Assembly: GCA_019930625.1 (NCBI GenBank)
Contig: CP082844.1
Span: 3,162,001 to 3,226,000, forward strand
Direction: 5' to 3'
Source of the DNA: Nocardia asteroides
GTDB taxonomy: Bacteria; Actinomycetota; Actinomycetes; Mycobacteriales; Mycobacteriaceae
Length of the DNA stretch: 64,000 bases
The stretch's first letter is position 1. Each line of letters starts with the position of its first letter. A model generated the notes under the pieces. It saw only the letters and a list, made by a program, of their open reading frames with translations, searched no databases and was not told the origin of the DNA. The translations under genes and the position numbers were made by a program. This document shows, piece by piece, positions 10,049 to 15,815 of the stretch.

Positions 10049-10269
10049 CCTAGCCGCCTGGGTTTCAGTACGGCACCGAACCTTTGGATGATGCGGGCGT
10101 CGGTTACGCTGCGCGAAGGCGCCCTCGTAGCGTCGCCGCGCTCGGAACTGTGCACAGAGGTCGGCTTCACATCGGAAAGCCGTGCGAGGAAACGGCCATA
10201 GACGACGCACTTCTCCGCCGTGACAGTTCGGCCCAGTCAGGCGTGAACGGTCGTTGCTCCGGAAACGTG

Positions 10270-10316
10270 AAGCCGGGCCGAACCACTCCGCCGGAGGGAG
10301 TGATCTGGCCCGGCTT
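10270..10316 (-). terminator. Relic kgd terminator
   Basis: AAGCCGGGCC (10270-10279) pairs with GGCCCGGCTT (10307-10316), with inner pairing of ACTCC and GGAGT. Counterpart of the hairpin at 15635-15678. Confidence 0.75.
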
Positions 10317-10328
10317 TCGGATCAGGGA

Positions 10329-10447
10329 CTACCAGTTGGCTCGAACGCTTCGGCGATGATCTCCACCTGTTCCACCGTGGACCTTGCTGGCCCCCGGGGA
10401 GCGGGGCGACATGGGCGCGGCGGGAGATACGGCACGCAGTTGGCCGT
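10329..10447 (-). pseudogene. Frameshifted remnant of the kgd C-terminus
   Basis: On the minus strand the fragment reads ...GASKVH in one frame and [15 protein letters not shown] in another, matching [21 protein letters not shown] of intact Kgd. A 2-bp deletion (CCACC-GTGG versus CCACCGCGTGG) causes the frame change. Similarity stops near 10447; upstream sequence is unrelated to kgd, so only the tail was duplicated or captured. The divergence suggests it is old or came from another species. Confidence 0.85.
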
Positions 10448-10812
10448 TCGGCAGATAGCTGAACTCGGCGGCTGAACCATCGACCTCGCCTTCCGACTTA
10501 CGTTTTGGTCCTGTCGAATTCTGTTGCGAGGCAGAAGCCAGGGGATTGCCTGGCGTGGCGCGGGACAACGATCAACACTGACTGGCACGCGTTGACCCCA
10601 GTGCGTGTCATCTGTTCATCGAACACCGGAGACGGCATGAACAAGTCGATCGTCCAGTTGCTCCTCGATAGAGCCATTTATACCAAAGAGCGCTGACACC
10701 CCTTTCGTGTGGGGTGGTCACGCGATAAGCAGCCGACCCGGTCGGGCCGGACTGCGCCGACGCCTCCGCACGGTCTCGCCGTGTCGATGATCAGCGAAAA
10801 TTGGAGTACATC
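10448..10812. other. Gap ahead of the Liv operon; no confident gene
   Basis: Composition is less GC-rich than the flanks. It contains a possible 19-codon ORF (10637-10696) and just after it a CACCCC/GGGGTG stem (10697-10702, 10711-10716) that could act as a terminator or attenuator. The Liv operon promoter should lie in this stretch but I cannot place it. Confidence 0.4.
10637..10696 (+). CDS. Possible 19-aa leader ORF upstream of the Liv operon
   Basis: ATG at 10637 with GGAGA five nucleotides before it encodes MNKSIVQLLLDRAIYTKER and stops at 10696, one base before a C-rich/G-rich stem. It could be a leader peptide, or chance. No run of a regulatory amino acid is obvious apart from three leucines. 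Confidence 0.2.
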   Translation: MNKSIVQLLLDRAIYTKER

Positions 10813-14302: not shown

Positions 14303-15574
14303 ATGAAGAAGAGAAGGTTTCTGTGGTGCGTGGCGCCGGTGCTGGCGGCAGCGCTCGCGCTCACGTCGTGTTCCGCCGACTCGACGAACGACGGGTCCAC
14401 ATCCATCGGCCCGGTGAAGGTGTCCGACGGCGGGCTCACGGGCGACCCGATTCTGATCGGGTCGATTTGCAGCTGCACCGGCCCGGCCGCCGGATCAGTG
14501 GGACGCGCCGGCGACGTGCTGCAGTCGTGGGCGTCGTGGGTCAACGATCGTGGTGGAATCAATGGGCACCCGGTCAAAGTCATCTCCTACGACGACGAGC
14601 AGAATCCGGCCACGGCGCTGGCCGTCGCGAAGAAACTGGTCGAACAGGACAAGGTTGTCGCCATCGTCGGCCAAACCAGCCTGGTCAGTTCGAGCTGGCA
14701 AAGCTACGTCGCAGGCAAGGGCATTCCGGTGATCGGCGGACAGCCGGTCGATGCCCCGTTCATCACCGATCCGAACTTCTTCGCCTCCGGCACCACGCTG
14801 CCGGTGCTGATGCTGGGCGAGGTGGCCCAGGCCAAGAAGGCGGGCGCGAAGACCCTCGGCGTCTTCTATTGCGCCGAGATCCCGGTCTGCGAGCAACTGC
14901 CGCAGATGCTCGAGCCGATGGCCGAACAGGCTGGTCTGGGATTCGCAGCGGAGAAAGTCGCGATCGCCGCGCCGAACTACATCGCTCCCTGCCTGACATT
15001 CAAAGACAAGGGTGTCGACGCCTTGTTCTCCGCTGTCTCGGTCGAGGCGATCTCGCGTATCGCGGCATCGTGTGCGCAGCAAGGTTATAAACCGGTGCAG
15101 GCTCCTCTCGGCACGGCCCTCCAGAAAGGGTGGGCGAAGGACGCGAATTTCGAGGGCAGCATCTTCGCGAGCTCCAACGCGCTGTACACCGACGAATCCA
15201 TCGCGGCTGTCAAGGACTTCAATGACGCCCTCGACAAATACATTCCGGGGCTTCGGGATAGCGCGGACTTCAGCTCACCGCTGCTGTGGCCGTGGGCAGG
15301 CGGGCAGTTGTTCCTGGCTGCGGCAAAAACCGCCAACCTCTCCCCGTCTTCGACGAGCGCGGATGTGATCAAGGGGCTGCGCGCACTGCGCGACGAGACT
15401 CTCGACGGTCTCGCTCCGCCACTGACCTTCCCGGAAGGCAGACCGGCGTTCCCGTTGTGCTATTTCACCGGAAACACCAAAGGCGGTGCATTCCATTCCG
15501 ACAACGGTGGTAAGCCGACGTGCATCGACGAGGCTACTGCCGCTGCGCTGATGAAAGCGCTCGCGCCGTCCTGA
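14303..15574 (+). CDS. Branched-chain-amino-acid-type ABC substrate-binding lipoprotein
   Basis: 423 aa. Signal sequence MKKRRFLW... with lipobox ALTSC predicts cleavage and lipidation at Cys23. The mature part is a periplasmic-binding-protein type I (LivJ/urea/amide) fold, with GDPILIGSICSCTGPAAG at the start and WVNDRGGINGHPVKV as the family hallmark. Extra cysteines (two in SICSC, others in FYCAEIPVC and PLCYF) may form disulfides. It captures the ligand outside the membrane for the preceding transporter. It starts 32 bp after livF with GGAG upstream. Ligand unknown. Confidence 0.9.
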   Translation: MKKRRFLWCVAPVLAAALALTSCSADSTNDGSTSIGPVKVSDGGLTGDPILIGSICSCTGPAAGSVGRAGDVLQSWASWVNDRGGINGHPVKVISYDDEQNPATALAVAKKLVEQDKVVAIVGQTSLVSSSWQSYVAGKGIPVIGGQPVDAPFITDPNFFASGTTLPVLMLGEVAQAKKAGAKTLGVFYCAEIPVCEQLPQMLEPMAEQAGLGFAAEKVAIAAPNYIAPCLTFKDKGVDALFSAVSVEAISRIAASCAQQGYKPVQAPLGTALQKGWAKDANFEGSIFASSNALYTDESIAAVKDFNDALDKYIPGLRDSADFSSPLLWPWAGGQLFLAAAKTANLSPSSTSADVIKGLRALRDETLDGLAPPLTFPEGRPAFPLCYFTGNTKGGAFHSDNGGKPTCIDEATAAALMKALAPS

Positions 15575-15591
15575 TCGTCGGAACTGGCCAG

Positions 15592-15614
15592 GCCCCGGCT
15601 TTTCAGGCCGGGGC
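15592..15614 (+). terminator. Terminator of the Liv operon
   Basis: GCCCCGGC (15592-15599), loop TTTTCAG, GCCGGGGC (15607-15614), 17 bp after the binding-protein stop codon. Confidence 0.7.
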
Positions 15615-15625
15615 GTGGACTCCTT

Positions 15626-15815
15626 GGAAACGCGAAATCGGGCCGAATCGCTCTGTGGAGAGTGATTCGGCCCGATTTCAGGGTCAAGGACTACGCCGTC
15701 GGCTCGAACGCTTCCGCGATGATCTCCGCCTGCTCCACCGCGTGGACCTTGCTGGACCCCGAGGACGGGGCCGACATGGCGCGGCGGGAGATGCGGCGGA
15801 GTTTGCCGAGGCGGT
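15626..15815 (-). repeat. Right direct repeat: native kgd 3' end plus terminator
   Basis: Partner of 10261-10447. It includes the terminator and the last ~40 codons of the intact kgd gene. Confidence 0.85.
15635..15678 (-). terminator. kgd terminator
   Basis: Perfect 15-bp arms AAATCGGGCCGAATC (15635-15649) and GATTCGGCCCGATTT (15664-15678), 12 bp beyond the kgd stop. Confidence 0.8.

Follow-up and report, generated by a model that had tools for sequence, protein, structure and literature searches.

An importer operon of the liv type stands at the 3′ end of kgd in Nocardia asteroides, between the intact gene and a decayed second copy of its end. We consider it probable, as the best reading of this locus, that the operon was inserted there without an integrase and with a long duplication of its target, and was subsequently exchanged by recombination around kgd. 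The stretch analyzed, hereafter the window, comprises 64,000 nucleotides (positions 3,162,001 to 3,226,000 of contig CP082844.1); signed positions are counted from the kgd stop codon, with plus behind the stop. The window genome is designated G000, while G005 is N. pneumoniae, G007 N. exalbida, G060 N. abscessus, and G166 N. vinacea. The kgd flanks of 110 Nocardia genomes were fetched, and the survey of the liv block covered 150 Nocardia genomes.

A decayed second kgd 3′ end in the window

A BLASTN comparison of the window with itself paired 10261-10433 with 15626-15797 on the same strand (82.6% identity over 178 columns, E = 2e-35). Since kgd runs along the minus strand, the left copy corresponds to the last 39 codons of the gene plus its terminator (Table 1). 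A search of the whole genome with the kgd end gave three matches, to the query region, to the left copy at 80% identity, and from a pairing of the terminator palindrome with itself, and revealed no further kgd-end copy in the genome. The identity between the left copy and the kgd end is thus 80 to 83%. Chance similarity of two GC-rich sequences is ruled out by the E value and by a local alignment score of 191, as compared with a best score of 34 in 500 shuffles and ~1,500 random window stretches on both strands. These alignments bear out the preliminary description, which had reported a repeat of the kgd terminator and last ~40 codons at 10261-10447, in the same orientation and ~80% identical, with a frameshift caused by a 2-bp deletion. 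The deletion is present, together with other small insertions and deletions, and the left copy has no frame that matches the kgd end throughout.

The interval between the copies had been described as carrying an importer operon only and no visible integrase. Both statements hold for the large open reading frames (ORFs) scanned: all three are importer genes, and the family scan found no recombinase among them. The NCBIfam matches of the importer (LivG/UrtD, UrtE/LivF, and weak matches of the binding protein) all lie below the curated cutoffs. ORFs of 895 to 983 amino acids, at the same place as the permease-permease-ATPase fusion of the window, occur in G005, G007, G060, and G152.

Table 1. Features of the window around the duplicated kgd end
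Feature	Position	Strand	Basis
Conserved block, behind kgd at variable distance in many Nocardia, inverted in some	1415..7334	-	Genome comparison
Sequence on the far side of the left copy, matching the G073 kgd downstream flank in two separate pieces at 90-92% identity	9597..10022		Window 10022-9732 and 9729-9597
Left copy: decayed second kgd 3′ end (last 39 codons) and terminator	10261..10446	-	BLASTN, genome search, shuffles
Portable liv block, also at other chromosomal places in other Nocardia	10498..15587	+	Outermost matches at window 10498 and 15587
Fused Liv permease-permease-ATPase ORF, 898 aa from TTG	10801..13497	+	BPD_transp_2 in two stretches and ABC_tran in one ORF
Second Liv-type ATPase (LivF/UrtE-like)	13494..14270	+	Family scan; NCBIfam below cutoffs
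Substrate-binding protein	14303..15574	+	Peripla_BP_6
Matching stretch: intact kgd 3′ end with terminator	15626..15808	-	BLASTN, genome search
Inverted repeat, probable intrinsic terminator of kgd	15634..15679	-	Self-complementary match and sequence reading
kgd, multifunctional 2-oxoglutarate decarboxylase/dehydrogenase	15691..19482	-	NCBIfam equivalog, 2109 bits

Several other features of the window were recorded. A target of the tRNA type was rejected, as neither a tRNA nor a tmRNA was found in the window. As possible vehicles, a phage was set aside because window 10200-10800 has no phage match, and a plasmid because only weak partial matches, to six plasmid records, were obtained. Three related stretches of ~0.8 kb within 52491-56365 are 74 to 77% identical and probably represent a paralogous gene array. 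Self-complementary stretches at 1359-1414 and 57310-57376 (57 and 71 columns, 84 to 88% identical) are possibly terminators.

The kgd downstream region across Nocardia

Gene content between kgd and the conserved block varies among Nocardia genomes, and the block, where it was found in the stretch read, lies from ~0.9 kb (G020) to ~38 kb (G025) behind kgd. Other layouts and direct junctions of kgd with a neighbor were found, and not one layout everywhere. An EspC/WXG100-like gene, so assigned from Pfam of the G005 protein, directly follows kgd (+102 to +175) in 11 of the 110 genomes. It is present in the stretch read in 20 genomes, far away or inverted in some of them (G021, G074, G077, and G104), and was not found in the stretch read behind kgd in 90. 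With the gene seen in just 20 of 110 genomes, we only infer that kgd, its terminator, and the EspC-like gene in a row constitute the older layout.

In G005, the second kgd copy ends at +6806 and the EspC-like gene starts 81 bp behind it, at +6887. In G007, a partial EspC-like match (residues 5 to 63, 53% identical) lies behind the kgd copy at 5496, and a full-length, inverted relative is found farther downstream. Because the second copy in these two genomes stands at a kgd-neighbor junction like that of the 11 genomes, the intervening DNA was inserted. Beyond the left copy, the window itself has flank-B-like sequence, similar to sequence behind kgd in G025 and G005, and not the EspC-like gene; for this flank, the unoccupied target is shown only indirectly.

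Among the 106 genomes in which the sequence read extends 1 kb or more behind kgd, 6 have a second direct copy of the kgd end. Four of these carry liv (G000, G005, G007, and G060), and the others are G017 and G119, the latter with 49 bp only; the inserts thus lie between directly repeated copies of a long piece of the target, except that the repeat of G119 is short. In G152, which also has liv at kgd, at most ~20 bp of the copy is left (the block match ends at window 10426). As background, a second direct copy turned up for 60 of 5,520 random 185-bp stretches from the kgd regions of 92 genomes, and G032, G006, G060, and G061 account for 46 of the 60, so that a lone repeat like the 49-bp piece of G119 is weak evidence. 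G000, G005, and G007 have a collinear junction between the second copy and liv, probably the product of one event. The duplicated stretch starts at -117 in G000 and G005, -101 in G007, -29 in G017, and -369 in G060, although decay may have trimmed some of these.

The order behind kgd in G060 (two short ORFs, liv, an EspC-like relic, and a young kgd-end copy) is not fully explained; judged by size, similar ORFs may also lie behind kgd in G025 and G155. The young copy (~9.24 to 9.86 kb) reaches back to -369, is 97% identical to the genome's own kgd over 437 columns, and stands behind the EspC-like relic, perhaps as the product of a later, separate event. In liv-less G070, the EspC-like gene at 1690 follows an apparent half copy of the kgd terminator (~1574-1690), perhaps the scar of a loss. 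Genome G025, the sister of the window genome in the kgd tree, has ~36 kb between kgd and a gene for a NERD-domain protein; this stretch (contig C250, ~3.5 to 39.8 kb) encodes, among others, a DndB-family protein and a large DEAD/MZB helicase and may be a defense island. The PADLOC models mad3, mad6, and PD-T4-6 match 3 to 4 of 150 ORFs near kgd, a region in which defense genes may be present, with kinase matches that are maybe generic.

A second insertion at the kgd end in G017

An independent second insertion at the kgd end is found in G017, where a gene for a 255-amino-acid protein without a Pfam family separates kgd from a second copy of its 3′ end, with the EspC-like gene behind this copy at 1232. 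The unoccupied, single target is seen in relatives. The G017 sequence matches G156 from kgd to +76 (+75 in G156), is then interrupted by an insert of ~1 kb, and resumes its match at -29; the resumption at -29 is identical in G156, G158, G092, and G109. The two limits indicate that ~105 bp of target was duplicated. The first matching stretch ends at +79 in the comparison with G092, at +82 with G109, and already at +38 with G158. Relatives of the inserted gene lie farther downstream of kgd in G158 (9.4 to 10.2 kb) and G092 (3.3 to 4.2 kb).

Distribution and history of the liv block

A match to the binding protein with an E value of 1e-60 or better was obtained in 15 of the 150 genomes; 11 of these matches are at least 75% identical (over part only in G166), and the other 4 are 36 to 46% identical. 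The liv block resides at kgd in five genomes (G000, N. pneumoniae, N. exalbida, N. abscessus, and G152) and at other loci in six (G146, G151, N. vinacea, G167, G170, and G073). A kgd tree of 17 genomes scatters the hosts of kgd-located liv, forcing at least four changes, and the respective sisters of G000, G060, and G007 all lack liv at kgd. The conserved-block tree (14 genomes, with G005 missing) again requires four changes, and here G000 is not sister to G025. The trees were made without G017.

Divergence gives a similar picture. The G060-G152 distance is 0.030 for liv versus 0.093 for the conserved block, the G000-G007 distance is 0.122 versus 0.072, and the third-position ratio of liv to block distance ranges from 0.34 to 1.57 over the six pairs of G000, G007, G060, and G152. 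The distribution and divergence of liv thus do not fit the host trees, and transfer of the block between species seems to have taken place at the kgd locus. In the liv tree, the kgd-located copies form one group with weak support (56/98), and 54% of the bootstrap trees need one change only; a single arrival of liv at kgd, followed by transfer and loss, is therefore possible, and losses could account for part of the scattered distribution. The notion that liv duplicates its target wherever it lands was rejected, since five other liv loci (the truncated G166 copy being left out) are flanked by direct repeats of 12 to 29 bp at best, with a best E value of 0.005.

Sequence switches at the kgd end

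The kgd gene of G007 resembles that of its sister G074 up to -6 (82 sister-like and 24 donor-like sites) and that of G152 thereafter (1 and 18 sites). None of 2,000 shuffles gave as high a value for this switch, which lies between -6 and the stop, although noncoding sites behind the stop also change faster. The liv block of G007 is close to that of G152 (distance of 0.042). For the window genome, a weaker switch was detected against G152 at -24/-21 (56/25 versus 7/20 sites; 2 of 2,000 shuffles) and another against G070 at -75/-54 (6 of 2,000), while the best switch against G005 is far upstream, at -1133/-1032 (0 of 2,000). The switch-point test found none at the kgd end of G060. Of six control comparisons with liv-less genomes, those of G070 and G121 likewise show a switch, at -21 to -12, with at most 4 of 2,000 shuffles as high. 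The signal hence marks a hot locus or general break zone and not liv transfer as such.

Proposed origin of the insertion

The anatomy of the locus fits an insertion with long target duplication, and the discordant trees fit later homologous recombination around the kgd end. The preliminary description had named two possible origins of the pattern, a mobile segment that enters at the 3′ end of a conserved gene and restores that end, or an unequal exchange that duplicates it. Insertion with a duplicated end agrees with the direct kgd-neighbor junctions of other genomes. A site-specific element that restores the end is not supported, given that no recombinase family was found among the proteins scanned between the copies and that the starts of the duplication vary, even if decay may have shifted some.

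The course of events that we favor would be as follows. The kgd 3′ end of Nocardia would serve as a recurrent entry point for accessory genes. Starting from kgd, its terminator, and the EspC/WXG100-like gene in a row, the liv block would have entered between the terminator and the EspC-like neighbor, duplicating the kgd end (at least 117 bp of coding sequence plus the terminator). The distal copy, presumably free of selection, would then have decayed into the relic at window 10261-10446. Entry would have needed no integrase and most likely occurred by homology-assisted or illegitimate repair recombination; candidate routes are pairing at one homologous anchor, the filling-in of a staggered break, and a single crossover with a circle. 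Later, homologous recombination in and around the kgd end would have exchanged the block among species akin to N. abscessus, and some would have lost it. We infer the route of entry and the role of the duplicated end as a homology arm from these patterns.

The last of the routes can be taken as an explanation in its own right, in which a circular DNA (a plasmid or an excised circle) carrying a kgd 3′ end and liv integrated by a single crossover of the Campbell type. This would place direct copies on either side of the cargo without an integrase, such a circle could be released from an array of kgd, liv, and the second kgd end already in place, and the near identity of the second copy in G060 to its own kgd end would be accounted for. 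We nevertheless regard it as unlikely, since none of 72,556 plasmid records contains the block (the best match, at 66% identity, spans 25% of its length) and since the G017 cargo, one gene with relatives downstream of kgd in G158 and G092, makes a circle unnecessary.

Gene 3′ ends with terminators are known targets of integrative elements, and e14, at icd in E. coli, is one that restores the gene's 3′ end. A site-specific element of this kind could have targeted and restored the kgd 3′ end, brought the importer, and then lost its integrase, the two copies being its attachment sites. The kgd end would be expected on both the element side and the displaced side, as is seen, and the locus resembles e14 at icd in having cargo beside the gene end and a displaced copy of that end on the far side. 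It differs from e14-type elements in that the duplication has no constant start (-117, -101, -29, or -369, even if decay may have trimmed some) and in that the proteins scanned between the kgd copies, namely the importer ORFs of the window and four non-liv ORFs of G005, G060, and G017, include no recombinase family. Integrases, resolvases, and transposases are likewise absent from the 25 most frequent of 87 families among 150 of 202 ORFs picked near kgd (up to G105), and among the PF00589 matches listed, none is on the kgd contigs of 15 draft genomes or near kgd in G000, G152, and G155. An element of this sort is thus rather improbable. Hardly probable at all is a local tandem duplication of the kgd end and a neighboring liv operon, with loss of the second liv and no transfer between species: unequal exchange also produces direct copies, and the liv tree is compatible with a single origin at kgd, but liv divergence does not scale with host divergence (as in G060-G152), each of the five genomes with kgd-located liv has a second copy or, in G152, up to ~20 bp of one, and the copy is followed by an EspC-like gene in G005 and by a partial match to it in G007.

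Relation to known systems

Insertion of this type is already known, and the kgd 3′ end adds a case to the known kinds; insertion with long target duplication in Helicobacter pylori was reportedly the subject of Nobusato et al. 2000, Gene 259:99. In the relevant parts of two further reports, such insertion in H. pylori is often tied to restriction-modification genes (PMC1643837, PMC4978471). As far as those parts describe it, the Nocardia locus is alike in having accessory genes between direct copies of a long target and a single target in a related genome. It is unlike in its cargo, which consists of genes for a nutrient importer or, in G017, of a gene that has no Pfam family, both at the same gene end with its terminator.

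Minimal mobile elements, as outlined in part of PMC3082526 (which cites Saunders and Snyder 2002 and Snyder 2007 for them), are whole-gene cassettes between two conserved genes, incorporated by homologous recombination. The kgd locus shares with this outline the differing whole-gene cassettes at the same conserved site across genomes. Instead of two conserved genes, however, one arm at kgd may consist of a duplicated gene end in decay, and our comparison is between species. Homology-facilitated illegitimate recombination has been proposed for type VI secretion system (T6SS) effector arrays of Vibrio cholerae (part of PMC5361080). These arrays, as portrayed there, have one homologous anchor, another end joined illegitimately, and displaced remnants downstream, as the kgd locus may have too, but their remnants are orphan immunity genes, whereas the Nocardia remnant is a duplicate of a metabolic gene's end, and its joints are old and decayed. 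Neither this locus nor insertion at kgd came up in narrow literature searches, with subscription journals mostly outside their scope.

It is tempting to go one step further and tentatively regard the kgd end as an integrase-free capture site, at which each capture duplicates ~100 to 600 bp and the duplicate provides a ready-made homology arm; the cargo might then be a self-armed cassette, able to insert at the kgd end in any relative, irrespective of the downstream sequence. Where accessory operons without a transposase or integrase stand beside core genes, their origin is hard to see once the traces have decayed. At kgd, a single core-gene end combines several cargoes, direct junctions, duplicates of different age, and signs of transfer between species. 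With several traces at one gene end, the route of entry (RecA, end joining, or the filling of a staggered break) becomes testable, and the duplicated gene end is a simple scar by which such captures can be found in any set of genomes.
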